30,518 nt of DNA. It comes from a virus. The stretch spans positions 1 to 30,518 of IMG/VR virus record IMGVR_UViG_3300044630_000120; one strand, given 5' to 3'. Made by a program: the position numbers and the translations under genes. This document shows, one piece after another, positions 1 to 30,518 of this stretch (positions within the stretch are counted from its first letter, which is position 1; each line of letters starts with the position of its first letter). The notes beneath the pieces were generated by a model. That model was not told the DNA's origin and ran no database searches. It saw nothing but the letters and a program-made list of their open reading frames with translations.

Positions 1-1465
1 TGCGGCGCTCGATGTTTGGTGGGCAGGTTGCGTCCACGGTCGGCGACAAGGCGAACCTGATCGTGGGGTCTTTGGCAAGTTCCTGCACGTTTTCCCACAG
101 CTCTGTTATTGACTCGGCGATAAACGCGACGGTGACAAGCACCCGACCGTCTGACAGGTTGACGCATCTGGTCGCGCTGTATCTGGAGTCGTCCAGCGAC
201 GATTCAATTGCCACGACCCCACCGCTAGGCACGTCCCCTGTGTATTCCAATGACGGCCAGCGCCCTGGCTCAATCCATCCGCGCACAACACTCACCCAAA
301 GGTTTAGGGATGCGCGCAAGAATGACGCGCGATCGGGGTTTGTGGATTCTTGTCTGATGGTGTCCATGTCCAACGTGTAACCGAGTGCAGGGTTACCCCA
401 CGCCCATGACGCTGGGTGCAACGGGTCAAGGCTTGGGTCGGGAGACCATTCCGCCATATACATCGTTGACGGCTCACCCTTGTCAATGGCTCGAATGCCA
501 GCCTCACGCCAACGCTGGAACAACACACTTTCTTCGGTGCCAGCCGTGCTGAAAAAGCAAGCCAAGGGATTTTTTCGTGCGCGCTGTGCCGGCAAGAGCC
601 CCCCTTCGACAGAATCGGGGTTGACATCAAATAATTCGTCTACCACACATAAGTCAATTGACATACCGTGACCTTGATTGGGTTTCAACGCCTTCACCCA
701 CCACTTGCTGCCGTCTGGCATCGTGGCCTGATAACGGCCGTACGACTTAACGATCTTGGCGCCGTAATACTCCTCAAGAATTGGTGCAAGATCATCAAAC
801 AACAAGCAAGCCAAATCCAATCGGTGCGCGCCCGAAACAATGGTTTGTTTCTGTCCACGTATCTTTGGCATTTCGACTAACCAGGCGAGAATTAGTGCCT
901 GAATAATAGTTGTCTTACCATTTTGGCGCGCCACCGAACAGAGCGTTGAACGATGAACAAAGTGATTGTTCTCATCTACTGCAAGCATTTTTTCAAGTAC
1001 ATGCTTTTGCCACGGCATAAGTGTTACGCCAAGAACCTTCTGGGCCATGTCCCCCACAAGTCCCCCGAATGAGCTCACGTAGTCCGGGCTGATCGTTTCC
1101 AGTCTTGGCCGATCATGGTTGGTTGGCGCTGGTTCAGGCTGATCTTGGCTGGTGGCGACAAAATGATGGATGGGGCTCGGGGGCAGTTGAGAGCTGTATA
1201 AAAAATCGTTTATTGCTTTTTCCCTGTTTTGTTTTGCGTTTGCCAATTTTTTATTGCGATACGTTGCGCCTCGAGCGCTGTTGCATGGCTTGCATGCTGC
1301 GACGTATCCGTCTTCTATTGTTCCGCCTTTGTCTGATTCGACTAGGTGATCTAGTTCTGTTGCTGTGTTGCGTTTGCACCAATGACACAATGGTTGATCG
1401 CGCAACAGTTCAGCCCGTGCCTGTTTGTAAACCTGCGTGTCGTGTTCAGTTAGTTTGCGTGTCAT
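1..1465 (-). CDS. terL: HNH-large terminase fusion, allele 1 (C-terminus cut by window edge)
   Basis: DNA-packaging motor subunit: ATPase plus nuclease that cuts concatemeric phage DNA and pumps it into the prohead. Translating down from the ATG at 1463-1465 gives 488 open codons to the window edge; compared with the complete copy at 14820-16553 about 89 C-terminal residues are missing. The first ~65 residues form an HNH nuclease domain: a CxxC pair at C27/C30, Asp-His at 39-40, and a second CxxC followed by Asn at 58-62. A linker leads to the terminase ATPase with P-loop ARQNGKT at about 179-185. The start overlaps the stop of a 28-aa ORF by ATGA. The allele aligns without gaps to the one at 14820 (offset 15088) but differs at many bases; it is closer to the third allele at the right end. 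Function is well supported; the fusion is read directly from the sequence. Confidence 0.9.
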   Translation of the reverse strand, partial: MTRKLTEHDTQVYKQARAELLRDQPLCHWCKRNTATELDHLVESDKGGTIEDGYVAACKPCNSARGATYRNKKLANAKQNREKAINDFLYSSQLPPSPIHHFVATSQDQPEPAPTNHDRPRLETISPDYVSSFGGLVGDMAQKVLGVTLMPWQKHVLEKMLAVDENNHFVHRSTLCSVARQNGKTTIIQALILAWLVEMPKIRGQKQTIVSGAHRLDLACLLFDDLAPILEEYYGAKIVKSYGRYQATMPDGSKWWVKALKPNQGHGMSIDLCVVDELFDVNPDSVEGGLLPAQRARKNPLACFFSTAGTEESVLFQRWREAGIRAIDKGEPSTMYMAEWSPDPSLDPLHPASWAWGNPALGYTLDMDTIRQESTNPDRASFLRASLNLWVSVVRGWIEPGRWPSLEYTGDVPSGGVVAIESSLDDSRYSATRCVNLSDGRVLVTVAFIAESITELWENVQELAKDPTIRFALSPTVDATCPPNIERR

Positions 1466-1548
1466 GCTCGCGCGCTTCGCTTGCGCTGACGCGGCGCTTG
1501 CGCGCCTTGTCCACGATTGTTGTTTGTCATGTTTGTTGTCGGGTTCAT
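1462..1548 (-). CDS. 28-aa basic peptide ORF overlapping the terminase start
   Basis: A short ORF (28 codons plus stop) starting MNPTTNMT and ending with the basic tail RQRKRSARA. Its TGA overlaps the ATG of the HNH-terminase gene as ATGA, the arrangement used for translational coupling throughout this genome. The same ORF with the same length and frame stands at 16550-16636. Differences between the copies are two Asn-to-Tyr changes plus synonymous changes, while the last ~45 bases are identical. No strong Shine-Dalgarno sequence is visible. I do not recognise a family. It could be a real basic peptide, for instance a nucleic-acid binder, or a leader whose translation delivers ribosomes to the terminase. 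It is far too short to be a standard small terminase subunit. Confidence 0.5.
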   Translation of the reverse strand: MNPTTNMTNNNRGQGAQAPRQRKRSARA

Positions 1549-1794
1549 GTTTGTGCTTTCTTTGTTTGTTAACTGTATGTCATCTGCAGGTCAAGAGATG
1601 TGTGAATGCTCCACCCTCTGGATTGCCCATCCCAGATCCCTATTGCATTACTTCATCAGTCTGTTTACTGATCGCCCAGTCGCATTGCCCAAAGCATTTC
1701 GTCTTGCATGATTCGAGGCGCGACCGTCTACCCACGCTTTCCGTGTGTTACCCGATCACCTTGCGACGGTGTAGGTCGTGCTACTAGCCGATTG
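1549..1794. other. Gene-free region between VRR-NUC gene and terminase operon
   Basis: About 245 bp without a convincing gene. Besides the promoter-like element, the minus strand carries a small hairpin at 1730-1748 (ACxCACG pairing with CGTGxGT around a GAAAG loop). Its counterpart at 16815-16832 has the same stem around a GAAA tetraloop. A 14-codon ORF starting MQDEM occurs in both copies but its remaining residues are not conserved. Lying just upstream of the terminase, the region is a candidate for a packaging-initiation (cos/pac) site or a leader; that is inference. Confidence 0.4.
1566..1594 (-). promoter_or_regulatory. Promoter-like sequence before the terminase operon
   Basis: On the minus strand TTGACC (1589-1594) is followed after 17 bases by TAACAA (1566-1571). 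The -35 is close to TTGACA; the -10 is weak (3 of 6 to TATAAT). The element and its flanks are almost unchanged in the second unit (16654-16682), although sequence further upstream has diverged. Predicted transcription would begin only about 10 bases before the 28-aa ORF. This is the only sizeable gene-free region of the unit, so a promoter here is plausible. Confidence 0.35.
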
Positions 1795-2139
1795 TTACTG
1801 TCTGGGATTGCTGAGAGTGTAGAGAATGTACTCCATGTCACTTGGCTTCCATACCGCTGCATGACAACCAGCTATCTCGCAAGCGTTAAGCCATATCTTT
1901 TGTCCAGGTGTCAATTTGCCCTTCTCTGCTTTCAACTCAATGACCAATGGCCGACCGCCTTGGAATGGGTGCACCATGAACAGATCAGGGAAACCCACAT
2001 CGCCTTGGACGTTTGTCATCCAGCGCCCTCGAGTGTTCTGTGCCGGCAAATCATGATGCACTAACCAGCCGTAACGCTTAGCAACGCTAATCACCATGTC
2101 CTTAAAATCGGCTTCGCTGATCTTTGGGTTTAATTTCAT
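1795..2139 (-). CDS. VRR-NUC domain nuclease
   Basis: A 114-residue single-domain nuclease of the VRR-NUC branch of the PD-(D/E)xK superfamily. The core is visible: GFPDLF at 49-54 with Asp52, then VIELKAEKGKLTPGQ at 66-80 with Glu68 and Lys70 as metal/catalytic residues and the conserved Gln80. Phage VRR-NUC proteins are known or suspected to act on branched DNA such as Holliday junctions or flaps, fitting a role in resolving replicating or recombining concatemers before packaging. The ATG at 2137-2139 is chosen because it overlaps the upstream stop as ATGA and matches the second copy; a longer reading from 2199 would extend into the upstream gene. It is the last gene before the gene-free region. 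Confidence 0.85.
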   Translation of the reverse strand: MKLNPKISEADFKDMVISVAKRYGWLVHHDLPAQNTRGRWMTNVQGDVGFPDLFMVHPFQGGRPLVIELKAEKGKLTPGQKIWLNACEIAGCHAAVWKPSDMEYILYTLSNPRQ

Positions 2140-2309
2140 TCTTTTGCTTCGCGCATTTGTGCCTGCCATATGGCATCGGCGAGGTTCTTGGCTGTCCATT
2201 GCAGCTTTTGTAGCACGTCATCGCTATGCAGAAATTCGTGACCTGTTTTTAGCCGCTCAATCAAATCAAGCACACGGTCAAGGACGCTTATTAGTTCACG
2301 CATTGTCAT
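2136..2309 (-). CDS. 57-aa helical hypothetical protein
   Basis: Small protein starting MTMRELISVLD. It is rich in Leu, Asp, Glu and Lys with a heptad-like pattern over the first ~20 residues, so probably helical. The start at 2309 is favoured because it overlaps the preceding 28-aa ORF by ATGA and has AGGAG 6 bases upstream; the longer 70-aa reading from 2348 lies inside that upstream ORF. It ends overlapping the VRR-NUC start. Unit B has a different 70-aa protein in this slot (17214-17426) with no convincing similarity. No family recognised. Confidence 0.65.
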   Translation of the reverse strand: MTMRELISVLDRVLDLIERLKTGHEFLHSDDVLQKLQWTAKNLADAIWQAQMREAKE

Positions 2310-2392
2310 TTCTTCTCCTGCCACATAATTACTAAAATCGTTCCCCAAATGCCCATGACAATTCCAATAATGTTGAATGCCACGTAACTCAT
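2306..2392 (-). CDS. 28-aa single-pass membrane peptide
   Basis: Very short ORF beginning MSYVAFNIIGIVMGIWG and ending MWQEKK. Residues ~4-23 are almost entirely hydrophobic, giving one predicted transmembrane helix with a basic/acidic tail. Both ends are tied to real genes by ATGA overlaps: its ATG overlaps the stop of the annealing-protein gene (2389-2391) and its TGA overlaps the start of the 57-aa gene. The last codons also carry the Shine-Dalgarno sequence of the next gene. It is absent from the second unit. Function unknown; a small membrane-active or membrane-anchoring peptide is possible. Confidence 0.55.
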   Translation of the reverse strand: MSYVAFNIIGIVMGIWGTILVIMWQEKK

Positions 2393-2943
2393 TTCAGGCG
2401 CTCAATAATCTTGGATGCTTCATGCGATTTCAACAGCTCTAAGACCGCGCTGTCGTCGTTTAGTTCGCGATGTATGAACTCCAACAATCCCAGATCATCC
2501 ATGTTGGCGTCTTTGGCCAGTTTCTTGATGTAACCAATTTGCTTAGGTGTGGCAAATGCACCAGAGGGTATGTGCACAGGGTTCTGCCGTGTATCGGTTG
2601 GTGTGCTTAGGCGCTCGACCTTTTGCATTTCGTTGCGTGACGGCCTAGGGCCGCTTGCAGGTGCTTGAAGTGGGCAATTGGCAATAGCGCGACCAATGGC
2701 GCTTGTTTCACAGTTCTCCACAAATGATGTGGCATTGACGCCACGATCGCTTTTAATTTCTTCCGCATAGCCCGTAGCGACTGGCACCTTGTCGTCCTTG
2801 TCGGCGTACAGTTCGCAGTAGAACACGCAGGCATCGCCTGTGTAATTCATCATGCACGTGTAAACGCGCCCGTTCGGATATGCAGCCCACCAGCGCACCA
2901 AGCGTTGCTCAACTGTCTCGTAGTTGCTTAGGTCAAAGCCCAT
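2389..2943 (-). CDS. Erf/Rad52-like single-strand annealing protein (putative)
   Basis: 184 residues in two parts. The N-terminal ~90 contain a segment typical of phage Erf/Sak-type annealing proteins: ATGYAEEIK near 56-64 followed by NCETSAIGRAIANC at 77-90, resembling the ETSAIGRAL signature of that group. A flexible linker (~95-125) precedes a conserved helical C-terminal domain with TPKQIGYIKKLAK and a final ASKIIERLK. Annealing proteins pair complementary single strands and in phages drive recombination-dependent replication and concatemer formation, which suits the adjacent VRR-NUC gene. The ATG shares one base with the preceding TAA (TAATG). The family call rests on motif recognition only; a general ssDNA-binding role is the main alternative. 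Confidence 0.55.
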   Translation of the reverse strand: MGFDLSNYETVEQRLVRWWAAYPNGRVYTCMMNYTGDACVFYCELYADKDDKVPVATGYAEEIKSDRGVNATSFVENCETSAIGRAIANCPLQAPASGPRPSRNEMQKVERLSTPTDTRQNPVHIPSGAFATPKQIGYIKKLAKDANMDDLGLLEFIHRELNDDSAVLELLKSHEASKIIERLK

Positions 2944-3341
2944 TAGATGCCAGCCCAGACGCTTAGACGCTGTGCATGGTCATGCGCGCCACCGCGCTGT
3001 GCGTAAGCCAGTTCGCCTGTGTTGCGGATAATGCCCTTGCGTGCAGCTGCGTTAAGGCGTCCTGCTAGACCCTTGGTTACGGGGAACTGATCGCCTAAGT
3101 GTTTCCACACATCGTCAGCGGTGAAAAATCCTTTAGCGCGCGCAACGTGCCTGATCGCAGCGTCAACTTGGTTTTGTTGTGGTCGTGTCCAGCGCGCGTC
3201 AGCTGATGATTGTGATGCAAGCATGCCCTCAATAAATGGGGCGTTCTTTCGTGCCGGCACACGGCCATCACAGACAAAGTGTGTTTTGCCTGTTATTTCA
3301 GGGTAAGCAATTTGTTCTTTGCAGATTGTGCAGGTTTTCAT
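2943..3341 (-). CDS. Zinc-ribbon / winged-helix-like protein
   Basis: 132 residues. The N-terminus has a compact zinc-binding pattern, C4-x2-C7 and H21-x2-C24. The C-terminal half (about 60-120) reads like a winged helix: VDAAIRHVARAKGFFTADDVW, then LAGRLNAAARKGIIRNTGE. Together these suggest a small DNA-binding protein, possibly a regulator or replication accessory factor. A strong ribosome-binding site, AAGGAG, stands 9 bases before the ATG, with CCGACA repeated on both sides of it. The gene lies just after the conserved 87-aa gene and before the annealing protein. No specific family recognised. Confidence 0.6.
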   Translation of the reverse strand: MKTCTICKEQIAYPEITGKTHFVCDGRVPARKNAPFIEGMLASQSSADARWTRPQQNQVDAAIRHVARAKGFFTADDVWKHLGDQFPVTKGLAGRLNAAARKGIIRNTGELAYAQRGGAHDHAQRLSVWAGI

Positions 3342-3361
3342 TGTCGGAATCTCCTTGTCGG

Positions 3362-3625
3362 TTAGGAATGTGCTTGTAATGCTTTAATTGCTAAGTCGAG
3401 TGTAGTCACATCGTGCAATGGCATCGGTTCTTCTAATGACAACGAGTTCTTCATGCCTTTAAGACGCTGAATAATGCTTGCGTGCGGGTTAGTGCTGATG
3501 TCTGCAATTTCGTTAATCAAATTAAAGATTGCCATGTCGTGTTTTGTTGTCATCATTTGCTCCATTACCATTCGTCGGGTTTCTTCTGATAGTTCGCCTT
3601 GATTCCATGCAACACCTTCGCTCAT
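3362..3625 (-). CDS. Conserved 87-aa acidic helical protein
   Basis: Starts MSEGVAWNQGELSEETRR and ends AIKALQAHS. It is mostly helical by composition, without hydrophobic segments or cysteines. The start at 3625 is chosen because its ATG overlaps the lysozyme stop as ATGA; an in-frame ATG 12 bases upstream lies inside that gene. The copy in the second unit (18381-18644) differs by a single residue (Met to Leu) and only about 8 bases in 264, the best conserved gene outside the identical block. Function unknown; it marks the junction between lysis genes and nucleic-acid genes. Confidence 0.7.
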   Translation of the reverse strand: MSEGVAWNQGELSEETRRMVMEQMMTTKHDMAIFNLINEIADISTNPHASIIQRLKGMKNSLSLEEPMPLHDVTTLDLAIKALQAHS

Positions 3626-4137
3626 TTCACACTCCATGGCCCCCAGCCGAACCCGTAGCGCTCGACTCCGTAGTTGTATATTTCTAAACCTGCAAGCAAA
3701 TTAGTTTGAGCCTGTAACAGATCTGACGATTGGGTAATGATGCCTTTACCGATAAGCCATTTTGTCCATGACCGACCGTTAATTTGCAGCAATCCCCAGT
3801 CCTGTGATTTGTCACGGTTTAGCGTTTTGTTGTGTGCATTTGGTCGGCAGCCGCTTTCGCGTGCCATCACAGACTCAAGCACGGTGCGTTGATCTGCTGG
3901 CCAGCCTAGGTTGATGGCAAGCGCGCTGAACTGCTCACAAGCCGACGTGTACGGGTCAATGTAAATTGTGGAGCTGGTGGTTGTAGGCGGCTCGATTAGG
4001 TACGGTTCAACGCTTATCGGCTTTAAGGGCATGATGCTAGATAGGTCGCTAGACGCGCTAGGAGCCCCTGTGAGCGCCGTAACGCCAAAGACCGTACAAA
4101 GCACTAGCCCTATGATTTTCTCTGCTAAATAGTTCAT
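3622..4137 (-). CDS. Exported SLT/lysozyme-like muramidase
   Basis: 171-residue peptidoglycan-cleaving enzyme. Residues 1-28 are a signal sequence or N-terminal anchor (hydrophobic from IIGLVL to GVTALTG, then APSA, a possible signal-peptidase site). A Thr/Pro-rich spacer follows, then a lytic transglycosylase-type domain from ~68: VMARESGCRPNA with the predicted catalytic Glu94, GLLQIN at 115-120, and the IYNYGV...GWGPW ending common in such domains of actinobacterial phages. The start at 4137 is preferred over the upstream in-frame ATG because it overlaps the previous stop by ATGA and has GGAGA just before it. It pairs with the M15 peptidase two genes upstream, so the phage has both a glycan-cutting and a peptide-cutting lysis enzyme. 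Confidence 0.8.
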   Translation of the reverse strand: MNYLAEKIIGLVLCTVFGVTALTGAPSASSDLSSIMPLKPISVEPYLIEPPTTTSSTIYIDPYTSACEQFSALAINLGWPADQRTVLESVMARESGCRPNAHNKTLNRDKSQDWGLLQINGRSWTKWLIGKGIITQSSDLLQAQTNLLAGLEIYNYGVERYGFGWGPWSVK

Positions 4138-4310
4138 TTTTTCTCCAAAGGTATTGGCACGCCCCAAGACGAAACGTGCGATCTGAATGCAATTTGTCCC
4201 ATTAGGAACTTGCCCGATTCTGGGTTGGTAAAGATCTGAACCAAGATTTCTTGGCCGTTGTCCATGACTCCTGTATAGACGCTGTAATCAAAGATCTGTG
4301 GGTCAGTCAT
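4134..4310 (-). CDS. 58-aa hypothetical protein in lysis cassette
   Basis: Starts MTDPQIFDYSVYTG and ends VPIPLEKK; probably a small beta-rich cytoplasmic protein with no hydrophobic helix or cysteine. The ATG at 4308-4310 has AAAGGACAGG just upstream; an 80-aa reading from 4376 would extend into the M15 peptidase gene. It is coupled to the muramidase by an ATGA overlap. A closely similar 58-aa copy lies at 19147-19323. No family recognised. Confidence 0.65.
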   Translation of the reverse strand: MTDPQIFDYSVYTGVMDNGQEILVQIFTNPESGKFLMGQIAFRSHVSSWGVPIPLEKK

Positions 4311-4350
4311 TGCCTGTCCTTTTGTCGGTAATTCGACCTTAGGGGATAGG

Positions 4351-4896
4351 TCAAGCCTTAGGTGGGATTTCCCCAAACACCTTTAAAAATGCGGCTTTGA
4401 CAAAGATTACCGAGTCCGCTGCCTGTGGTGAAATCTCAAAGTGGAACCAATCGCCCGTGGGCGCTCCTGAAACTGTTGGCTTGCTGTACTTGCTCCATGC
4501 TTGACGATCGCAACGCCATGCGCGACCGTGCGGTGATGGAAAATAATCAATCACCATCTGGATGCCTAACTCGTTGGCGTTCGCGCACAACTTTTCTACA
4601 AACGGCAACGCAGATTTGCGTGACGATTGCGGGTGACGTGCATCGCCTCGATACGACATGTCAACCGCGCGACCAGTTGCGTGTACTGACAAACTGCCAG
4701 GCTTGCCTTTCATGTCCCTACGCCCGTAAGACCCGTTGTTCCAAAGCGCGCCACCTGAATGGTGTATCAACTGTTTAATAAACTCGTTCATGCCGGCACG
4801 TGGGCCTGCTGCTGGGCCGTCAGCGTTACCGATGTAGTCACGTGCACCTGGCACGCCAGCCTTAGCTTTCGCTGTTGACACGTCCAAAGCCTGCAT
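4351..4896 (-). CDS. M15-family peptidase endolysin
   Basis: Zinc peptidase of the VanY/D-Ala-D-Ala carboxypeptidase type (M15), used by phages to cut cell-wall peptides. The zinc-site pattern is clear: SVHATGRAVD with His72 and Asp79, and WFHFEI with His152. The protein has no signal peptide, so release would depend on the neighbouring membrane proteins. The start is uncertain: the ATG at 4896 gives 181 residues, but a GTG at 4879-4881 or TTG at 4885-4887 aligns better with unit B, which lacks the ATG. It overlaps the end of the holin-like gene in another frame. Confidence 0.85.
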   Translation of the reverse strand: MQALDVSTAKAKAGVPGARDYIGNADGPAAGPRAGMNEFIKQLIHHSGGALWNNGSYGRRDMKGKPGSLSVHATGRAVDMSYRGDARHPQSSRKSALPFVEKLCANANELGIQMVIDYFPSPHGRAWRCDRQAWSKYSKPTVSGAPTGDWFHFEISPQAADSVIFVKAAFLKVFGEIPPKA

Positions 4897-5056
4897 CTTT
4901 AGGGTTTACCCAGCGGAGCAATGGTGGGATGATTGCTGCGATTGCACCTTTGCCGAAGTCACGTGGGTCTGTGGTTCCTGTTGAGTACACGGCGATAAGC
5001 GCGCCAACTACTGATCGTAGGTAACTGGCGATCATGGCTTTGTCTTTAGGGTTCAT
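4862..5056 (-). CDS. Small holin-like membrane protein
   Basis: 64 residues with a hydrophobic stretch SVVGALIAVY (~15-24) and a second, AIAAIIPPLL (~38-47), ending WVNPKDAGFG. The RW/YxNPKDxxFG ending is one I associate with small holin-like proteins in actinobacterial and freshwater phage lysis cassettes. A ribosome-binding site AAAGGACGG precedes the ATG. It overlaps the upstream membrane-protein gene by 11 bases and the downstream peptidase gene. A role as holin is inferred from size, hydrophobicity and position. Confidence 0.6.
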   Translation of the reverse strand: MNPKDKAMIASYLRSVVGALIAVYSTGTTDPRDFGKGAIAAIIPPLLRWVNPKDAGFGRVNSES

Positions 5057-5309
5057 CGTGTCCGTCCTTTGTTTTGTTCTTTAGTCCGTTGGATGCCAAT
5101 AAGCCTATAAGACCGCCAGAGAGGGTCATGAGCATTGGGTTAAGAACCGAAAATGCTTCTGCGTCGTTTGGGGCTTGCTCGAGCGGTTGGGTAACAAATA
5201 GCAGGCCATACAAAAGGGTGAAGATTGAACCGACAAACGCGCATGTCAGACCAATGCCGACGATAAGAATAAGTCGTGCTTTGATTTCGTCGTTGGTGTA
5301 TCTAGCCAC
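5046..5309 (-). CDS. Two-helix membrane protein of the lysis cassette
   Basis: About 87 residues with two clear transmembrane helices (starting at RLILIVGIGL and LNPMLMTLSG) and a charged Lys-rich tail, a class II holin-like topology. No ATG is available. The GTG at 5307-5309 is preferred because it overlaps the upstream stop (GTGGCTAG) and then aligns with the ATG start of the homologue at 20059-20334; a longer reading from a TTG at 5330 is possible. Either this protein or the next could be the holin, with the other an antiholin or pinholin. Confidence 0.6.
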   Translation of the reverse strand: MARYTNDEIKARLILIVGIGLTCAFVGSIFTLLYGLLFVTQPLEQAPNDAEAFSVLNPMLMTLSGGLIGLLASNGLKNKTKDGHDEP

Positions 5310-5463
5310 AGCGCCCACCGCCAACAGCAATTTCTGTTGTCAATGTAATTGCTTTGTTTTTGGTTCGAATGCAGTTCATACGTTCCCGATCAGAACAGCC
5401 AGCGCAACCCCACAAAACGACTGCAATTAACGCGCCGTAGCCGATGAGGTAACGCCATCTCAT
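5302..5463 (-). CDS. 53-aa lipoprotein-like small protein
   Basis: Starts MRWRYLIGYGALIAVVLW followed by GCAGC. The basic N-terminus, hydrophobic helix and cysteine cluster look like a lipoprotein signal, although the lipobox is imperfect. The mature part is short and basic. The start overlaps the preceding stop by ATGA. The copy in unit B (20318-20515) shares the signal segment almost exactly but has a different, Cys- and Pro-rich mature region. A membrane-anchored lysis accessory is plausible; a spanin is unlikely if the host has no outer membrane. Confidence 0.55.
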   Translation of the reverse strand: MRWRYLIGYGALIAVVLWGCAGCSDRERMNCIRTKNKAITLTTEIAVGGGRCG

Positions 5464-5726
5464 TCAAACGGTGGATTTATCGGTTCGGATGGTGGCACAA
5501 ATATGTCTTGATCGGCGTCATAAGAAAAACCTACGCCTGCGTAACAGCCACGGAAGTTTGCGTTATACGAGGTTTCAAGCCATAAACCGTCAAACCCTAA
5601 AGACGCAATAAATGCTTGACCTACTGGTTCGCTTTCTGGGTACGGCAAGTTATGGATTGTTTCGTTGTTAACAACAATCACATTAATGACTGTGTTAGTT
5701 GCGTCGAGTTGCGCGTAATGTGCCAT
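5460..5726 (-). CDS. Tail-fibre-associated protein of a marine/freshwater phage type
   Basis: 88 residues starting MAHYAQLDATNTVINVIVV, with ETSYNANFRG.YAGVGFSYD in the middle and a Pro-rich FVPPSEPINPP end. This pattern (MAHxAxLD..., SYN...R..YAGxGxxYD...F.pP) is a small family I recognise from aquatic tailed phages, usually beside tail-fibre genes and of unknown structural role. It follows the glycine-rich gene with a TGATG overlap. Unit B has an unrelated 63-aa protein in this position. Confidence 0.6.
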   Translation of the reverse strand: MAHYAQLDATNTVINVIVVNNETIHNLPYPESEPVGQAFIASLGFDGLWLETSYNANFRGCYAGVGFSYDADQDIFVPPSEPINPPFE

Positions 5727-6598
5727 CAGAACGTGATACTTCCTGAACCCGTAAACGTGTAAACGTGAAAACCTGCACGACTAGAACTATCAATTGTTGG
5801 GCTTCCTGTTGTCGCTGTTGCAAGATCAAACGCAGTTGAGTACGCAATAATTACTACACCCGATCCACCGTTCGCACCTGCAGCTGATACACCTGACTGA
5901 AACCTACCGCCACCACCGCCACCTGTGTTTACTGTTCCTGCGTCTGGGCCGGTCACGTTATTGCCACCAGTACCACCGCCACCAGAACCACCTGAAGCTC
6001 GTGTGTTTAGGCTGGAACCACCACCACCGCCAGCGCGGGTTGTAGCGCTTCCGTTAATGCTTGATGATGTTCCAGCTCCGCCTGCTGTTGGTGTAGCGCT
6101 TCCAGCGTTGCTCGCTCCAGCACTTGCACCGCCACCACCACCACCAGCTTGATTAGCCGTAGTTGTAGAACCAAAAGATGTTCCACCAGTATTGCCTTGC
6201 GACGGGCTTGTGCTTGGTGTGTTACCTGCACCGCCAGCATAATTGACTGCTTCTGCTCGACCGGCACCGCCACCACCCGAACCACCTGCGGTTGCTGTTG
6301 GCGTGTCAAATGATCCACCTTTACCGCCACCAGTTGATGTAATTGTGCTGAACACGCTGTCTAAGCCATTGTTGCCCGCACCGCTTGTTCCTGCACCGCC
6401 AGCTCCAACGGTAACGGTTAGTGCTACACCTGCTGCAACAGCAAAACTTGCTGATGACCTGTAACCGCCTGCGCCACCGCCACCAGCAGCATTTGCGTTA
6501 ATTGTTGAGTTACCGCCGCCCGAACCACCGCCAGCAATAACTAAGTATTCAACAGCTGTTGGTGGGTTAGCACCGCCTACGCCTGCTAACAGTTGCAT
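5726..6598 (-). CDS. Glycine-rich tail fibre / receptor-binding protein
   Basis: 290 residues of which the central ~230 are runs of Gly, Ser, Ala and Thr (GGGGGG, GGSGGGG), framed by an N-terminal VEYLVIAGGGSGGG and a C-terminal VVIIAYST...FHVYTFTGSGSITF. Such domains are typical of phage tail-tip adhesins in which polyglycine sandwiches display variable loops that touch the host receptor. The start at 6598 is chosen because its ATG overlaps the previous TAA (TAATG); an in-frame ATG at 6652 lies inside the upstream gene. Absent from unit B, so it belongs to an exchanged host-range cassette. Confidence 0.75.
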   Translation of the reverse strand: MQLLAGVGGANPPTAVEYLVIAGGGSGGGNSTINANAAGGGGAGGYRSSASFAVAAGVALTVTVGAGGAGTSGAGNNGLDSVFSTITSTGGGKGGSFDTPTATAGGSGGGGAGRAEAVNYAGGAGNTPSTSPSQGNTGGTSFGSTTTANQAGGGGGGASAGASNAGSATPTAGGAGTSSSINGSATTRAGGGGGSSLNTRASGGSGGGGTGGNNVTGPDAGTVNTGGGGGGRFQSGVSAAGANGGSGVVIIAYSTAFDLATATTGSPTIDSSSRAGFHVYTFTGSGSITF

Positions 6599-6981
6599 TA
6601 TGCAGCCAAGTTGCCAATTACTACCCAAGTGTCGGTAGCAATTTTGCAACATGTCGCGACCGCATATTGGCCGTTAGTTTTAAGTTTTGATCCTGCGCTA
6701 CGAAGCGTTACGCCAGCTCCAGCGGTAATTGTGACTTGACCTGCACCAAGTTGCATGACGTTAATTTGTGTACCAATTCCGTAGGCGACCGTGCCGTTTG
6801 GTGGAATAGTTAGCGCAATTGAAGCTGCGTTGTCGCACGTAACTAATTTGCCGTCATCGGTTAAAACTGTTGTGTAGGTCGTGCCGGTCTGGGCGTTGAT
6901 TGCAACCATGGCCGTAGCCATTGCATCTAATTCGGCTGCCAGGAGTATTTGTCCTGCTGTGAAGTCTTGCCTTGTTGCCAT
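6598..6981 (-). CDS. Tail fibre-like structural protein
   Basis: 127 residues starting MATRQDFTAGQILLAAELDAM. From ~33 onward it reads TTVLTDDGKLVTCDNAASIALTIPPNG...VNVMQLGAGQVTITAGAGVTLRSAG...NGQYAVATCCKIATDTWVVIGNL (quoted in pieces), a beta-strand pattern common in phage fibre proteins. The ribosome-binding site AGGAGCAC precedes the ATG. It follows the distal tail protein and precedes the glycine-rich adhesin, so it probably forms the fibre shaft or adaptor. No counterpart in unit B. Confidence 0.65.
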   Translation of the reverse strand: MATRQDFTAGQILLAAELDAMATAMVAINAQTGTTYTTVLTDDGKLVTCDNAASIALTIPPNGTVAYGIGTQINVMQLGAGQVTITAGAGVTLRSAGSKLKTNGQYAVATCCKIATDTWVVIGNLAA

Positions 6982-6989
6982 AAGTGCTC

Positions 6990-10080: not shown

Positions 10081-10082
10081 GA

Positions 10083-10492: not shown

Positions 10493-10505
10493 TGTTCTCC
10501 TATGT

Positions 10506-10518: not shown

Positions 10519-10522
10519 TTGA

Positions 10523-10954: not shown

Positions 10955-10978
10955 GTTTGCTCCTTAAGTTCTGATCTG

Positions 10979-12022: not shown

Positions 12023-12026
12023 TCGA

Positions 12027-20706: not shown

Positions 20707-20710
20707 GTTC

Positions 20711-21469: not shown

Positions 21470-21478
21470 AAGTGCTCC

Positions 21479-22768: not shown

Positions 22769-24084
22769 CAGGCCACCTGTAACTGCAACGGTCCAGCGCT
22801 ACGCGAGTAGGCGCGCAAGGCGTTAACGACTGACTCACCGATCTCGGCGCTTGTGGCAAGGCCGCCTGTGACGTTAATTGTTATTCCGCCACCGTTGTTT
22901 ATGCGATCTAACGGCACTACGGCTTCTGGGCCTGCTTCACCAATAAGGGCAAGTGTAGGGCTTGACACAATGCCACCTTCGGCTAGTCGAGGGATGTTCA
23001 TGCGGCCTGGTGCGGGAGTGTTGGCTGTTCTGCCAAGTTGTGGCACCGGCACGGTTGGGGCTTTTGGAATATCTGGCAACAATGGGATTGAGTTGTACGC
23101 GCTAATAATTGCGTTTACTGCGCCAATTGCAGCGTTGACCATGCCAGCAAAAAATCCGATAACGGTGTTAACAATTAGGTTAATTCCGTCGCGGAACCAT
23201 TCAAATTTGTTGTATGCGGCAACTAAGCCAACAATCAGCAATGCGATGCCTGCCGCAATAAGGCTAAATGGGTTGAGTGCCATAGCAATGTTTGTGGCTA
23301 CGATCGCCGCGGCAACTATGCCGATAGCAGCTGCAATTGCCAAAAACGCTTTGGGGTTGTCTTGTGCCCACATTGCGAACTTGTTAAGTATCGGAAGCAC
23401 GGCCTCGACTACTGGCAAGAGCGCAGCGCCGATTGACTCTTTGGTTTCGCCAATGGAGTTAGACAAAATCTTCATTTTGCCTGCTGCGGTTTCCGCGCTT
23501 GCAGCGGTAGCACCGCCAAAGGTTCCACCCAGCACGTCCATGACTTCGTTAAGGCTCGCGCCCTCTTTAATCATTGTTGCCATCTCTGGGGTCAATGATC
23601 GCAGCGCCTTAAAGTTGCCCTGGTATGCCTTGGCAAGCGCGTCTGCAACGGTGCTGGAATCCATCTGCAACGCCGTGCTGATGTCCATGACAAGGTTCAT
23701 GTCCTTCATAGCCAAGTCGACATCTTTGGTACCGCGAACCAAAGCCTCAAGGCTCTTGCGGTAATCGCTGTCCGCAATTCCAGACGCTCGACTCATCGCC
23801 GATATTTGTTCTTCAATCTGTGCGGTCTGTGCAGCACCCGCGCCAGTCACATTTTGCAAAGTAAGCGCTAACGCCGCCTGCTCTTGCTGATCTTCCATTG
23901 CAGCCTTAGTTGCGTCGCCTAATGCAACGGCTAAACCTGCAAGCGCTGCAGCTGCCGGCACCGCCGCTTTCTTGATTGCAAACTGGGCTTTTTCGCCTGT
24001 GGTTTCTAATTGCTTGAATTGGGCGATTGCGCGCTTAATTCCTTTACCGTCAAATTCTGAAACGATCGGGAGTACTACAGCCAT
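22768..24084 (-). CDS. Tape measure protein (unit B)
   Basis: 438 residues. The first ~250 and the last ~75 residues match unit A. The hydrophobic middle differs: a longer stretch with LIAAGIALLIVGLVAAYNKF and INLIVNTVIGFFAGMVNAAI gives more membrane-like helices. The C-terminal GGIVSSPTLALIGEAGPEAV motif is kept. The start overlaps the previous gene by TAATG. Confidence 0.85.
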   Translation of the reverse strand: MAVVLPIVSEFDGKGIKRAIAQFKQLETTGEKAQFAIKKAAVPAAAALAGLAVALGDATKAAMEDQQEQAALALTLQNVTGAGAAQTAQIEEQISAMSRASGIADSDYRKSLEALVRGTKDVDLAMKDMNLVMDISTALQMDSSTVADALAKAYQGNFKALRSLTPEMATMIKEGASLNEVMDVLGGTFGGATAASAETAAGKMKILSNSIGETKESIGAALLPVVEAVLPILNKFAMWAQDNPKAFLAIAAAIGIVAAAIVATNIAMALNPFSLIAAGIALLIVGLVAAYNKFEWFRDGINLIVNTVIGFFAGMVNAAIGAVNAIISAYNSIPLLPDIPKAPTVPVPQLGRTANTPAPGRMNIPRLAEGGIVSSPTLALIGEAGPEAVVPLDRINNGGGITINVTGGLATSAEIGESVVNALRAYSRSAGPLQLQVA

Positions 24085-24584
24085 TACATGAGCTCCTGTG
24101 AGGTCTTATCCATGACGCGCTTCACCAGGTCGGTCATTCGTGCGTTGACGTCGTCCTTGTTGCGCTCCCATGCTTTCCACATTACTCGTGACGGCTGACC
24201 AAACTTGGCGTTAAGACGTGAGCCCATAACACCGCTGTCTAAGAAGTCAAACAAGCCAGCGTCTGGGTTTGTCCATTTAACAACAAAGGTTGCAAGGTTG
24301 ACATTTTGCCCTGCGTATTCTTTAACCTTTTTTGTGTTAATCATTGCTTTGACCTGGTTGTTATTGCTCCAAGGAAATATCTCGTATTCTTTTGGAGCCC
24401 ATTTTCTTGCCCAACCGCTTAAAGGTTCTTTTAACGGAATGGCCTGATATGCGTCGTCAACTACATTTTGCACAATGCCCTTGTAGTCCCTCGTAATTTC
24501 TCGGCGCAAAGATTTGTCAATTTTGTTGAGGGTCTTTAGGGCGTCCTTAATGCCAGCAACTTCAATGTTTGCCTGGACTGCCAT
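24084..24584 (-). CDS. Minor tail protein, gp10-like (unit B)
   Basis: 166 residues, homologous to 9550-10080 but with a shorter, different N-terminus (MAVQANIEVAGIKDAL). The ATG is two bases after the frameshifted chaperone stop, preceded by AAGAAGG. Confidence 0.55.
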   Translation of the reverse strand: MAVQANIEVAGIKDALKTLNKIDKSLRREITRDYKGIVQNVVDDAYQAIPLKEPLSGWARKWAPKEYEIFPWSNNNQVKAMINTKKVKEYAGQNVNLATFVVKWTNPDAGLFDFLDSGVMGSRLNAKFGQPSRVMWKAWERNKDDVNARMTDLVKRVMDKTSQELM

Positions 24585-24586
24585 AA

Positions 24587-24996
24587 CTACCTTCTTTTCT
24601 TGTTTGCCTCGTTAAGCACTTTAATGACAGTTGCTACATCTCGAGCGTCAAACACAATGTTGCTAGGCCACCAACCGACCGCAACTAAAATCTCTGCTAA
24701 TTGGCGGCGGTAGGTGCCGCGTCCGTAGGGTTTGGGTCAGTCTCATCCAATACCGGAATGATCTCCAGCTCTGGGTTTTTGCTAATCCATTCGCGCCAAC
24801 TGTCGCCAATTTGCTCGCCTTTAAGTTTCAATATGGTGTGCATCCAACAGCAGTAATCGCTGTAAAGCGGTTGCGTTGATAGTTGCTGAATGTTGCGGCG
24901 CTCGAGTCTCTCCCACTCGGTCACCACAAACAGGTTTGTGTAGTAATACTCGGGCGCGCTGTCAGGCGTGCGCTTTAACTGCAACTTGATTTTCAT
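24587..24996 (-). CDS. Tail assembly chaperone with programmed -1 frameshift (unit B)
   Basis: Zero frame 24697-24996 (99 aa). Shifting -1 at CCCAAAC (24730-24736) opens YGRGTYRRQLAEILVAVGWW to NKKRR with the stop at 24587-24589; the product is 136 residues, equal in length to unit A. Several DNA changes in the second frame are conservative or synonymous (QLAEVL/QLAEIL, DLATVI/DVATVI), which shows it is under protein-level selection. Confidence 0.88.
24730..24736 (-). promoter_or_regulatory. Slippery heptamer CCCAAAC (unit B)
   Basis: Identical in sequence, frame and distance to the zero-frame stop to the unit A site. Confidence 0.85.
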
Positions 24997-25009
24997 GTTT
25001 CTCCTATGT

Positions 25010-25022
25010 CGGCTCGGAGCCG
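25010..25022 (-). promoter_or_regulatory. Hairpin between tail tube and chaperone genes (unit B)
   Basis: CGGCT CCG AGCCG on the minus strand, with the same stem as in unit A, just before the chaperone ribosome-binding site. Confidence 0.4.
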
Positions 25023-25026
25023 TTAG

Positions 25027-25443
25027 TTACGGGTTAGTGACGTCAATTGTCAACGCGCCACCCATAAACGTGATGTCATAGGTTGACAACTCGCCTAGGG
25101 ATGCGTTGATAACTGGCAACGACTCAAGGTAGCAATCAGTCAAAACAAACCTTGGGTTTGTTGCTGAATCCACAGCTGATGTTGGCTTAAGCGTGATAAT
25201 GGTTTTTGTGCCAACCAAAGGCTGCAATGTTGCGTAGGTTTCGCTTGATGCAAACGATGCGTACATTGTCAAAGTCACTTCGTTGTTAACCAGTCCTGCG
25301 GTGTAGGTGCGCGAATTGGTGCCGAACGCGGTGTCTTCCAAAGCCTCAACCAAATAGGTCAAAGTTGCTGCGCTGCACATGTCCGTCAAATCAACGCTGT
25401 TGATGGTGAGGACTGGGTTTGAGAGATATGTTGCTGATGCCAT
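25027..25443 (-). CDS. Major tail (tube) protein (unit B)
   Basis: 138 residues starting MASATYLSNPVLTINS. Shares ALEDTAFG and NASLGELS.Y with unit A but is more diverged than most structural genes and lacks a short N-terminal segment. Preceded by AAGGAGCAA. Confidence 0.8.
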   Translation of the reverse strand: MASATYLSNPVLTINSVDLTDMCSAATLTYLVEALEDTAFGTNSRTYTAGLVNNEVTLTMYASFASSETYATLQPLVGTKTIITLKPTSAVDSATNPRFVLTDCYLESLPVINASLGELSTYDITFMGGALTIDVTNP

Positions 25444-25467
25444 GATTGCTCCTTAAGTTCTGTTCTG

Positions 25468-25473
25468 ATAGTA
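25468..25473 (-). promoter_or_regulatory. Possible -10 element before tail tube gene (unit B)
   Basis: TACTAT in the same conserved context as at 10979-10984. Weak, no -35. Confidence 0.22.
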
Positions 25474-25499
25474 GATGATTGCTGTTACTTAGTTGTGGA

Positions 25500-25862
25500 T
25501 TATGCGGTTTGGGCTTGGATAGCGCATTCAAGGTCGTAGCACGGATACAACGCGCCACCAATCTCAAGGCTTGACGGACGGCCACTCATGACGATAATTG
25601 ACGAGCCAAGCACGCTTGCGACGATGCCAAGGATTGATCGGAGTACCGGCAGACCTGCAGGTCCAGAGCCAATGACCTTGATCGGGAACTCAAGGCGAAC
25701 GATGTTGCCGTTTCCAGCAAACGTGGTAAAACTTGGAGCTTCTAAATAAACCGAATTAGGAACAAGACGTGTTGGGTCATTTATTACACGGAGTCCAGAC
25801 ACAGCGGTTAGCGTTGCTGTGACATCGTCAATCGCTTCGTTAAACAGGTCGGTGTACGACAT
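25500..25862 (-). CDS. Tail terminator-like protein (unit B)
   Basis: 120 residues, nearly the same as 11011-11373 with scattered substitutions in residues 26-50. It starts at the connector stop (25862 shared). Confidence 0.6.
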   Translation of the reverse strand: MSYTDLFNEAIDDVTATLTAVSGLRVINDPTRLVPNSVYLEAPSFTTFAGNGNIVRLEFPIKVIGSGPAGLPVLRSILGIVASVLGSSIIVMSGRPSSLEIGGALYPCYDLECAIQAQTA

Positions 25863-26494
25863 CAGGCAACCGCTGGACGGGGGATGCCAAGCAGCTGCTT
25901 GACGATCGGGGTCAGGCTTTGCTGTGGTGCCGAACCCATGCCGTCAAACGTGGCGTAGGTTGCCTCTATTGACCCTCTGGAGCGCCACAGAGCGGCGCAA
26001 TACATCAAAGTGCCCAATGTTGCGTCACCGCCTGGTGAGGTCGTTAGGGAGTCGATATAGCCCGACTCTTGACGCCTGCGATAACAGAACTGGTTGCCCG
26101 CCGACACCGATTGCGTCAACAACGTGTAATCGTCAGACGGGTTCGTGATCGTGATGCCAAGGTAGGTCATGACCTGCGCGGCCGTCACCCATGTGCAAAC
26201 AGGGTCATTGGCAACAGTCCCAGACGCGGCAATACGCTCAACATCGCTTGCGGTCTTGGCGTAAAGCACCTGATCAGCGATCGGCACCTGATAGTCGTAC
26301 AGCAGGTCGCCCTGTGTATCAATACCAAGAAACAAATACTGGGGAAGCGCCCTAACGGAATACGAGCCATTAAAGGTTGCATCGACACCCGCAACAACGA
26401 TTGAACTGCCGACTGCAATCTCCGATGGGGTCAGAAGTTGCAGTACGGCAAAGTTGTCAATCAGGTACTTGTTGGTAACTGTGTATGTAGCCAT
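25862..26494 (-). CDS. Head-tail connector protein (unit B)
   Basis: 210 residues, no length change from unit A and only scattered substitutions. The ATG abuts the conserved hairpin. Confidence 0.65.
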   Translation of the reverse strand: MATYTVTNKYLIDNFAVLQLLTPSEIAVGSSIVVAGVDATFNGSYSVRALPQYLFLGIDTQGDLLYDYQVPIADQVLYAKTASDVERIAASGTVANDPVCTWVTAAQVMTYLGITITNPSDDYTLLTQSVSAGNQFCYRRRQESGYIDSLTTSPGGDATLGTLMYCAALWRSRGSIEATYATFDGMGSAPQQSLTPIVKQLLGIPRPAVA

Positions 26495-26511
26495 GAGCGG
26501 ATGCTCCGCTC
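26495..26511 (-). promoter_or_regulatory. Hairpin between capsid stop and connector start (unit B)
   Basis: GAGCGG AGCAT CCGCTC on the minus strand: arms identical to unit A, loop changed at nearly every base. Confidence 0.55.
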
Positions 26512-26515
26512 TCGA

Positions 26516-28111
26516 CTAAGCCTGGGTGATCTTGCGAATCATGCCACCGATTGCAGCGAACGTTGAAACGTAGCCGTGGAATGAGAATTGACGACCCAAA
26601 ACTGAAGGCTGTTCAACGCTCATTAGCCCACGAATTGACTCGTAGTACTCGTACGCATCGCCTTGGCCTTGACCTACGCGGGTGATGATCATGGTCTTGG
26701 CAGCGAAGTTGCTGTCAACTACCAACTGCAATCCGAGTGGGTTGCCGTTCCATGAAGATGCTGTTGCGTTGCCAAGTGCGTTCTGACCGGTGAGTCCTGC
26801 GCCGATGAATGGGAATACTGGACGGCCAGTTGTGTCGGCGAGCTGTCCGAGTTGACCCCATACGTCTGGGCTGACGAACATGTGCGTCGGTGTCCAGTTG
26901 CGGTTAGTTGAAATGTCAACAGCCGAGTCATAAACAGACTTCAACAAGTCGGCTACGGTGCCGTCCCAAACACCTGACGAATTTGCGGCGGTGAGCAAGT
27001 CGTCTGCTGCTTTGTTGTCTGAAGCGATCATGTATTCGCCCATGAGGTCATTCAAGATCAACTGCATTGCTGCAGGTGAAGTGAAGTCCATGTCCTGTGC
27101 GGACAAAGTCACTTGGCCAGCAAGCGTGGTTTTTGCAACCGAGTTGGATGCGATCACCATGGTGGTTGCAGATACAGCTGACAATTCAGTTGACTGTGTT
27201 GCAACGCTTGTGTGCGTCGTGATGGTTGGACGAATAAAGGTTTTCTGCTGACCATTGTCAGGATAAGCGCGAGCGCCTACAGCATTAACTACAGGCCTCA
27301 AAAAATTTAGGTCCTGTACGAGGGGGCCGAGCACAACGGTGCTCAGCAACCCGGGTGTGTCGCTCGAGAGCACATCGCCTGCGGCCGCTTGTAGTGCGGT
27401 GCGCTTTGATGCGGTGTAATCAGCAACTGCAGCGTTCATGTTCTTGAACGTGTCGCCACCGATGTGATAAGCGGCCATAAACTCGCCTGCGGTTGGCAAG
27501 ACAAATTCTTTTTTAGCCTGTGCGAAAATTGGTGCGGTTGGGATTGTTGCCTCAACTGCTGGTGCGGTTACTTCTGACATGGGTTCTATCTCCTGTTCTG
27601 GGACTACTTCTTCATTTAACACTACTTCTTCGGGCTCTTGGTGGATACTCGCTGCGACTTTGGTGATGTTTGCGGCATCGCCAAACGCGCCGATCGGAAC
27701 TAGGGATAATTCCATCCAGTCGGCTGACTCAATGATCATTGTTCCTTCTTCGTCGTACGAGAACTTGGTCGGGTTTACGCCAACCGACACCTGATCAATG
27801 GTTCCATCTTGGGCCATAATCAAAGCGTCGTTGCCAAGGCTGGTGGCGCTTATCTTTGCGCTGAACAACATTCCCTGCTCGGTATCTACGCGCTCCGTCA
27901 CAATTCCTACTGGCATTTCAGCCGAATGGTAAAGGAACAGACGTGGGGCTTTGCCTTCGACTGGCAATGAGCCTGGACGGAAAATCACAGCTGTGCCGTC
28001 CGAAACTGTTGCCGGCACGTTGTAGGGAACTGCGGTTCCGCTGATGGTGCGTCGTGGTGCGTCGCCTTTGGCGGCGTCAAGTGTGAACTCTCCTGCGATT
28101 AATTTGATCAT
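26516..28111 (-). CDS. Prohead protease-major capsid protein fusion (unit B)
   Basis: 531 residues. Protease residues (His62, Ser109, Glu134) and the acidic linker are kept. The capsid domain differs mainly around 265-330 (STVVLGPLVQDLNF, QSTELSAVSATTM) and near FIGAGLTGQNALGNATASSW. The start overlaps the portal stop by ATGA. Confidence 0.92.
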   Translation of the reverse strand: MIKLIAGEFTLDAAKGDAPRRTISGTAVPYNVPATVSDGTAVIFRPGSLPVEGKAPRLFLYHSAEMPVGIVTERVDTEQGMLFSAKISATSLGNDALIMAQDGTIDQVSVGVNPTKFSYDEEGTMIIESADWMELSLVPIGAFGDAANITKVAASIHQEPEEVVLNEEVVPEQEIEPMSEVTAPAVEATIPTAPIFAQAKKEFVLPTAGEFMAAYHIGGDTFKNMNAAVADYTASKRTALQAAAGDVLSSDTPGLLSTVVLGPLVQDLNFLRPVVNAVGARAYPDNGQQKTFIRPTITTHTSVATQSTELSAVSATTMVIASNSVAKTTLAGQVTLSAQDMDFTSPAAMQLILNDLMGEYMIASDNKAADDLLTAANSSGVWDGTVADLLKSVYDSAVDISTNRNWTPTHMFVSPDVWGQLGQLADTTGRPVFPFIGAGLTGQNALGNATASSWNGNPLGLQLVVDSNFAAKTMIITRVGQGQGDAYEYYESIRGLMSVEQPSVLGRQFSFHGYVSTFAAIGGMIRKITQA

Positions 28112-29229
28112 CGGCTTGCTATCTCCTCTTGAGTGTTTTCTCTTACAACTACTTCTTCATCGTCCATGCGATCGGCCATAAAGTTTTCTTCTAGGTATTC
28201 ATCGGCATCAAACTCGACGTATGTTCCACGCGGTAACACGTTGTCCATTGACAAAGCGCCAGCAATTGCGTCGGCATACAATTTCACGCCGAACAAATAA
28301 AGGTCGGCGCGCGCTTGCTGTGACGACTGGTATGAGTAAGCGCCAGTAGCAACGCCCACCAAATACGGTGGCACGTTTGCAAGACGCGACATTTCAAGCG
28401 CCTGATATTGTGACGCCTCAATCAGGAGCATCTTGTCTGGAGTGCTGTTTGTTTCCGTATATGTCAAATACTCGTTAAGCGCTGCAGTTTGGTTGGTTGC
28501 TCGAGCGGCATTAAACGCGCTAGCCAAATCAGCAAGTTCTTGCGCGCTAAGTGGTTCGCCACCAGTTTGCTTGAGTACGCCGGCAGGAATGCTTGACGAT
28601 GCGTTGCGGTTGCGCGCTGCTTCAAGTTTTAGCGCGGTTTCAATTGCGCCTGGTGCCGAGTAGATCAGGCCTTGTGCTGGAGACAAGAATTGCACAAGAT
28701 TTGCTGGGTCAATTTCTCCGCCTTGAAAATACACTTGTGACGATGGAGCAAACCACACAGGGCCAGCCATGTCGGTAGTAGTAATTGAGCCTGCTGGCAG
28801 TCGAGTGAACGTGGCAGGGTATCCGTCGGCGGTGCGTGAGGTGATGTACCAGAACGCGCGCCCAAACATCATGAGGTCATCAAGAGTCCAGCTCATAAGG
28901 AACTGGAACGAAACTGTTGGGTCTGGTCGGCGCAACCATGAACGTGGAGCAATGTAAATCTTCTCCATTTCTTCGCCGTTCCAAAACTCGTTGTATGAGC
29001 GGAGATTCATTGAGCCAATTACCGACGCCATCAGATCGCGCGCACGGTTGATCGTTGGGACGCTGATCGCCGCGTTACGCGCTTCGCCTTCGCGGTAGGT
29101 GTAGTACTGGCCGATCATGTTTACGCCAACATTGGACGACGAATAGCCAGGAGCAAAACCGCCTGCAGCTGCAGCCTTGCTTGGCGCTGGGCTTATCGCT
29201 GCTTTTTTGGTTTTGTTAAAGATCGCCAT
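28108..29229 (-). CDS. Portal protein (unit B)
   Basis: 373 residues. The protein matches unit A except near the C-terminus (MDDEEVV and EEIASR). The first two thirds are in the exact repeat; the last ~460 bases carry ordinary divergence, mostly synonymous. Confidence 0.9.
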   Translation of the reverse strand: MAIFNKTKKAAISPAPSKAAAAGGFAPGYSSSNVGVNMIGQYYTYREGEARNAAISVPTINRARDLMASVIGSMNLRSYNEFWNGEEMEKIYIAPRSWLRRPDPTVSFQFLMSWTLDDLMMFGRAFWYITSRTADGYPATFTRLPAGSITTTDMAGPVWFAPSSQVYFQGGEIDPANLVQFLSPAQGLIYSAPGAIETALKLEAARNRNASSSIPAGVLKQTGGEPLSAQELADLASAFNAARATNQTAALNEYLTYTETNSTPDKMLLIEASQYQALEMSRLANVPPYLVGVATGAYSYQSSQQARADLYLFGVKLYADAIAGALSMDNVLPRGTYVEFDADEYLEENFMADRMDDEEVVVRENTQEEIASR

Positions 29230-29566
29230 AGTCCTACTTTGTCATACAAGTGGCAACCGCGCATGACTTATCCGATTCCGACAAAAGGCAAGGTGCGCGG
29301 TCGCCGCGTTTATCTTAGTTATTTACCGCGACAAGCATGGGCTTTCCGCTGTTGACTGGTCGCGCGCAGAGACCAATTCCCCAGACCATTGTGCGGGCTA
29401 ACTCAATTGGCCCAGGCGAACGCTTGCTTGAAAGCACGATCGTGTTGTCGGTGCGAACAGCAACGGCGCGCTGCACATGTTCGGCTAACAGTTTTTCGCC
29501 TGTGTGCAGTAGGCGTGCTTCGGCGATCATGTTTTTGGCTAGCGGTGTAAAGCGTCCTAGTTCGGC
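28571..29566. repeat. 996-bp exact repeat, copy 2
   Basis: Identical to 14076-15071. The right boundary is sharp: the next bases (29567 on) no longer follow the second terminase but resemble the first one at the left edge of the window. Confidence 0.9.
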
Positions 29567-30518
29567 ATAGCCAACGACGACCCTGCGGCGCTCGATGTTT
29601 GGTGGGCAGGTTGCGTCCACGGTCGGCGACAAGGCGAACCTGATCGTGGGGTCTTTGGCAAGTTCCTGCACGTTTTCCCACAGCTCTGTAATTGATTCGG
29701 CGATAAATGCGACGGTGACAAGCACCCGACCGTCTGACAGGTTGACGCATCTGGTCGCGCTGTATCGGGAGTCGTCCAGCGAAGATTCAATCGCCACGAC
29801 GCCACCGTTAGGGATGTCCCCTGTGTATTCCAACGACGGCCAACGCCCTGGCTCAATCCAACCGCGCACGACCGACACCCAAAGGTTGAGGGATGCGCGC
29901 AAGAATGACGCGCGATCGGGGTTGGTTGATTCTTGCCTAATTGTGTCCATGTCCAACGTGTGACCGAGTGCAGGATTACCCCACGCCCATGACGCAGGAT
30001 GCAAAGGGTCAAGGCTTGGGTCAGGCGACCATTCCGCCATGTACATCGTTGACGGTGTTCCCTTGTCAATTGCTCGAATGCCCGCTTCTCTCCAGCGCGC
30101 GAACAACACGGATTCTTCGGTGCCAGCTGTGCTGAAAAAGCACGCGAGAGGATTTTTTCTAGCGCGCTGTGCCGGCAACAGACCGCCTTCAACGGCGTCT
30201 GGGTTGACGTCAAACAATTCGTCAACGATCACTAGGTCAATGCTCATGCCGTGACCTTGGTTTGGCTTTAATGCTTTGACCCACCATTTGCTGCCGTCTG
30301 GCATTGTCGCTTGATAACGGCCGTACGACTTGACAATCTTGGCGCCGTAATACTCCTCAAGGATTGGTGCCAAATCATCAAACAACAAGCAAGCCAAATC
30401 CAATCGGTGCGCGCCCGAAACAATGGTTTGTTTCTGTCCACGTATCTTTGGCATTTCGACTAACCAGGCGAGAATTAGTGCCTGAATAATAGTTGTCTTA
30501 CCATTTTGGCGCGCCACC
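29315..30518 (-). CDS. terL: Large terminase, allele 3 (N-terminus cut by window edge)
   Basis: 400 codons, beginning at the residue equivalent to 178 of the complete copy, so the edge falls at the P-loop (ARQNGKT) and the HNH domain lies outside. Walker B DLVIVDE and the C-terminal nuclease segments are present. It is a mosaic: the last ~80 codons are identical to allele 2, the rest is closer to allele 1 (offset 29583), and the final 145 bases equal 791-935 exactly. GTG at 30515-30517 is an internal Val, not a start. Confidence 0.92.
   Translation of the reverse strand, partial: VARQNGKTTIIQALILAWLVEMPKIRGQKQTIVSGAHRLDLACLLFDDLAPILEEYYGAKIVKSYGRYQATMPDGSKWWVKALKPNQGHGMSIDLVIVDELFDVNPDAVEGGLLPAQRARKNPLACFFSTAGTEESVLFARWREAGIRAIDKGTPSTMYMAEWSPDPSLDPLHPASWAWGNPALGHTLDMDTIRQESTNPDRASFLRASLNLWVSVVRGWIEPGRWPSLEYTGDIPNGGVVAIESSLDDSRYSATRCVNLSDGRVLVTVAFIAESITELWENVQELAKDPTIRFALSPTVDATCPPNIERRRVVVGYAELGRFTPLAKNMIAEARLLHTGEKLLAEHVQRAVAVRTDNTIVLSSKRSPGPIELARTMVWGIGLCARPVNSGKPMLVAVNN

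Follow-up and report, generated by a model that had tools for sequence, protein, structure and literature searches.

The 30,518-bp window analysed here, which is the complete IMG/VR record IMGVR_UViG_3300044630_000120 (classed there as linear), carries a tandem that very probably arose when a short-read metagenome assembler threaded through several strains of a mini-siphophage, rather than a double-length virus genome. We favour strain-threading because the contig's own de Bruijn graph closes into two circles, because 127-bp lassos occur in independent contigs of the group, and because a second assembly continues one of the units differently. The initial annotation had preferred either a strain-threaded assembly or a mixed concatemer, and the evidence selects the first of these.

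Layout of the window and divergence between the copies

From the letters alone, the window had been described as two diverged mini-siphophage units of 15,088 and 14,495 bp in tandem, followed by the start of a third, and self-BLAST confirmed this layout (Table 1). Positions 1-2124 matched 15089-17209 at 84%, 8731-16023 matched 23265-30518 at 86%, and 1-935 matched 29584-30518 at 90.6%. The overall identity between copies was ~86%; this ~14% divergence rules out a plain concatemer of one genome. Compared in 200-bp blocks, units A and B were mostly ~75-93% identical, with no relatedness left in the tail-fibre region, and the three terminase-region alleles all differed where they overlap (A-B 86.2%, A-C 90.4%, B-C 86.2%).

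The further claim that the copies differ at many sites and have swapped modules also held, in that the tail-fibre replacement is real: the region at 5.1-6.9 kb in unit A and that at 20.1-21.4 kb in unit B shared just 24-27% amino acid identity. Among viral contigs, the unit-B version of the tail-fibre-like gene had 59 relatives and the unit-A version only 6. Between units A and B, protein identity was 63% for the major tail protein and 76% for the tape measure. For the alignable genes outside the replaced fibre region, dN/dS between the copies was 0.02-0.36, which indicates that both copies derive from functional lineages.

Each unit encodes on its minus strand an HNH endonuclease and a large terminase (TerL) in one frame, a portal, a fused protease/capsid, an adaptor, a major tail protein, a tape measure, tail proteins, a lysozyme-like protein, and a VRR-NUC nuclease. 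When the HNH-TerL frame was compared with Pfam, TerL_nuclease scored above the cut-off, and HNH_5 and TerL_ATPase scored below it.

The sole exact repeat longer than 145 bp in the contig is a 996-bp perfect repeat (edge R in Table 1). The two junction intervals that the initial annotation had singled out for checking coincide with it. We also observed a perfect 145-bp repeat (edge E) whose end is the contig's final base, and a perfect match between 1-106 and 29584-29689, so that the contig start, too, lies within an exact copy of the opposite side.

Table 1. Coordinates of units, graph segments, cos sites, and genes in the window
Feature	Position	Strand	Details
Unit A	1-15088		15,088 bp
Unit B	15089-29583		14,495 bp
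Unit C, first 935 bp only	29584-30518		further terminase-region allele
Graph tail, third terminase-region allele, entered once	1-790		sole source vertex at K = 107-151; joins edge E at 791 for K up to 145
Shared edge E, first pass	791-935		145 bp, identical to 30374-30518
Unit A body	936-14075		with R and 29567-30518 closes the 15,088-bp circle (K = 127 simple cycle)
Shared edge R, first pass	14076-15071		996 bp, 5' part of portal to 3' end of terminase
Unit B body	15072-28570		with R closes the 14,495-bp circle (K = 127 simple cycle)
Shared edge R, second pass	28571-29566		perfect repeat of 14076-15071
Start of unit C, allele leading back to edge E	29567-30373		90% to 1-790, 86% to unit B
Shared edge E, second pass, path stops	30374-30518		perfect repeat of 791-935
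Joined cos, unit A	1171-1181		core TGGGGCTCGGG; same core in unit B
Joined cos, unit B	16259-16269		11 nt TGGGGCTCGGG, missing at linear ends, present in spanning contigs
HNH endonuclease (aa 4-82) and large terminase (aa 112-569), one frame across cos	14820-16553; unit A copy 2-1465	-	PHROG 589 (HNH), PHROG 9 (TerL)
Portal	A 13616-14734; B 28108-29229	-	PHROG 12, E 6e-30
Fused protease/major capsid	A 12027-13619; B 26516-28111	-	PHROG 2263 and PHROG 80
Major tail protein	A 10523-10954; B 25027-25443	-	PHROG 4574
Tape measure	A 8279-9550; B 22768-24084	-	PHROG 28 and others
Tail-fibre-like	A 5726-6652; unrelated module in B 20711-21469	-	PHROG 2295, Pfam Gly_rich_2; ~27% aa identity between copies
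Lysozyme/transglycosylase-like	A 3622-4167; B 18641-19180	-	Pfam SLT_3 and SLT
VRR-NUC domain nuclease	A 1795-2199; B 16880-17236	-	Pfam PF08774, E 3e-8

The contig's own de Bruijn graph and the shape of its relatives

We built a de Bruijn graph from the contig itself over a range of K that included 107-145. At each K tested within 107-145, the graph had one source (base 1) and zero sinks, with a 790-bp tail running into two circles. At K = 127, there were exactly two simple cycles, of 14,495 and 15,088 bp, and a 996-bp edge was common to both. Each cycle contained a single cos core and, for every long gene, a single intact copy; the 577-aa HNH-TerL frame is among these genes. The exact overlaps (996 and 145 bp) are at least as long as the k-mer and the graph offers no other exit, as strain-threading demands. 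The unit lengths fit single genomes of the group, since one relative (L089) measures 14,669 bp end to end and two others, L088 and G038, are exactly circular at 13,891 and 14,941 bp, the terminal repeat of G038 being exactly 127 bp.

The same shape recurred in related contigs. Among the 35 related contigs of at least 13.2 kb, eight (L084, L085, L087, L091, L094, L247, L248, and L249) consisted of a diverged tail and a single circle without a sink. The closing overlap was exactly 127 bp in five of them (L084, L087, L247 [G029], L248 [G031], and L249 [G032]) and 126 bp in L091; 127 is a usual largest k of SPAdes-type assemblers. The ends of these eight contigs and of L083 overlap via diverged copies; all slightly exceed one genome, and the true length of each is probably one graph cycle, 14.1-15.3 kb. 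We also found a second diverged tandem, G028 (L245 and L246; IMGVR_UViG_3300042289_000054), 27,037 bp long and with copies 90-94% identical. That record amounts to nearly two units and belongs to a more distant branch of the group.

A second assembly bears on unit B directly. IMGVR_UViG_3300042542_000096 (6,750 bp, metagenome 3300042542) corresponds to 19289-26032 of unit B, exactly over 6,744 bp, and leaves it at 26033 to follow another allele to its own end, with AGGAGA instead of TGGTGA. At this position, either the strain is itself different or one or both of the assemblies switched strain. Perfect matches hundreds of bases long are common between contigs of the group, so shared edges that give assemblers a place to switch are to be expected. 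Exact 36-base probes directed at the 996-bp stretch, unit A, or unit C hit no further viral contig, and single-strain versions of these parts were thus not exhibited.

We propose that the sample would have contained at least two related lytic mini-siphophages, of ~14.5 and ~15.1 kb, with their ends joined at cos in cells, as circles or concatemers. Identity of these strains over 996 bp, from portal to terminase, would have given a figure eight in the assembly graph: two circles with one common edge, and side branches for further alleles. The assembler would have entered by the side branch at 1-790, followed the 15.1 kb circle, crossed the 996-bp edge, followed the 14.5 kb circle, and crossed the 996-bp edge again, halting when it re-met a used edge (791-935, identical to 30374-30518). 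We infer that the k used for this sample lay within 107-145 and that the reads carried no strain linkage; the two circles may be strain mosaics themselves. Points that count against an assembly artefact are the absence of probe hits in other viral contigs and two features of the joins. The joining repeat measures 145 bp rather than exactly 127 bp, and the 996-bp edge exceeds a normal short insert in length, which means that coverage, or a lack of alternatives, must have carried the assembler across.

Repeated genomes in IMG/VR contigs have been treated by CheckV as probable assembly artefacts, with terminal repeats at assembler k-mer lengths (PMC8116208). The concatemer artefacts described by CheckV and MetaVR (PMC8116208, PMC12807716) are like the window in their head-to-tail genome, over-long contig, and k-mer-length terminal repeats. 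However, one circle is traversed twice in that type, whereas several strains are threaded here. The mean 21-mer multiplicity of the window was only 1.09, because its copies are ~14% diverged, and this value falls below the MetaVR concatemer threshold of 1.4 (PMC12807716).

Joined genome ends and the HNH-terminase frame

We placed the terminal 250 bp of ~80 related contigs on the window. At the equivalent of 16258, 24 contigs ended, one of which was a base short; L089 and L095 started at the equivalent of 16270. Loci that end or start around the equivalent of 16257-16270 include L004, L007, L011, L061, and L089. As L089 spans from one end position to the other, it constitutes an end-to-end genome. 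The fixed ends and the 11-nt gap between them identify cos phages with linear virion genomes of ~14-15 kb, and the window traverses two joined cos sites. Judged from the sequences, the loss of the 11 nt at both ends would fit a 3' single-stranded extension that was trimmed off when the libraries were prepared; 3' extensions of 8-13 nt are usual in actinophages (PMC7302621, PMC5513430). The group shows the marks of cos-packaging mini-siphophages, namely a genome of 14-16 kb, fixed ends, a fused protease-capsid, and a siphophage tail gene set that includes a tape measure, and contig ends alone sufficed to locate the cos site of this uncultured group.

The frame that runs from HNH through cos into the terminase was open in all 36 spanning sequences, six of which have a terminase of only ~50% identity, and no conserved start codon lay between cos and the PRLET motif of the terminase. 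Internal starts at approximately aa 136, 139, or 149 of the frame are possible. In the linear genome, the HNH-TerL gene is divided between the two ends. On the strength of the reading frames, we lean slightly toward the HNH nuclease and the large terminase of the window being translated as one protein from the cos-crossing frame. If so, the packaging-motor gene would be whole only after end joining and would be split by its own product at every packaging event. The HNH part alone had no match in the phage collection. A literature search, incomplete in coverage, returned nothing on point for a terminase gene spanning cos, and we did not find this single-frame variant described.

The nearest likenesses among phages come from actinophages. 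Arthrobacter phages of cluster AN (Decurrovirus; Elkhorn, MF140409, and Kels, ON970580) are siphophages of 14.8-15.7 kb (PMC5513430) with the same order of terminase, portal, fused protease-capsid, adaptor, major tail, and tape measure genes, and with an HNH gene at the right end by the genome end. However, the best identities to cluster AN were just 28-29% for the portal and 26-27% for TerL, which places the window outside Decurrovirus proper, and HNH and terminase are separate there but form one frame here. Rhodococcus phage RRH1 (14,270 bp) shares the size class, the right-end HNH, and the left-end terminase; it is distant in sequence and differs in having a separate small terminase gene and a lysin in the head operon. 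In Elkhorn, Kels, RRH1, and Bintii, HNH is a separate gene at the right end. Gordonia phage Emperor (MH271296) resembles the window in that its annotated HNH gene extends over the joined cohesive ends, but that gene terminates ahead of the small and large terminase genes, which are separate, and Emperor has an integrase.

Alternative readings and implications

The alternative that survives best, although improbable, is a real mixed concatemer, in which co-infecting relatives would have recombined in the portal/terminase stretch during rolling-circle replication, the product being cut later at each cos. Such a molecule would account for the two cos sites of the window being joined, as in replicating DNA, and for both units being intact, and the long exact stretches that relatives share despite their divergence elsewhere show frequent recombination in the group. 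However, recombination between two circles should return the first strain after the second shared stretch, and we found a third allele there (90% to A, 86% to B). A contig with three different alleles at a single site requires three parents, so at least three would have to meet in one molecule. The path also ends on an exact repeat of its own earlier sequence, and relatives do likewise at 126-127 bp. Finally, exact self-closure was seen in only 2 of the 35 long relatives and overlap with diverged copies in many; taken as real molecules, the diverged overlaps would make mixed concatemers more numerous than pure ones. A heterodimer circle formed by one crossover was ruled out, since the third unit is not unit A again.

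Tandem prophages occur in bacteria. We consider an origin from two related prophages side by side in a host chromosome very improbable: the window has no host flank and no integrase among its annotated genes, its units do not meet at an attachment site, and a capsid query against bacterial and archaeal genomes (genome_contigs, 84,980 species) returned no prophage relative and no host.

A genuine 30 kb genome with two complete virion gene sets, already ranked least likely by the initial annotation and favoured by nothing other than the contig itself, is effectively excluded, as each unit has its own cos where 24 related contigs end and packaging would yield ~15 kb pieces, as two portal genes occurred in none of 27 other contigs longer than 9 kb, and as the relatives in which the capsid gene occurs twice are themselves loops of this type, overlapping or tandem.

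Taken at face value, the tandem would distort what is concluded about genome size, gene duplication, and recombination in a phage group with hundreds of IMG/VR relatives. A contig made of diverged copies passes the k-mer concatemer test, as the window does, whereas asking whether the de Bruijn graph of a contig lacks an exit would reveal such loops with nothing but the sequence. Overall, the tandem is almost certainly an artefact, yet it brings to light the joined genome ends of a large group of uncultured phages: the joined units reveal where the genome ends lie and a terminase gene that seemingly crosses them, which is testable.
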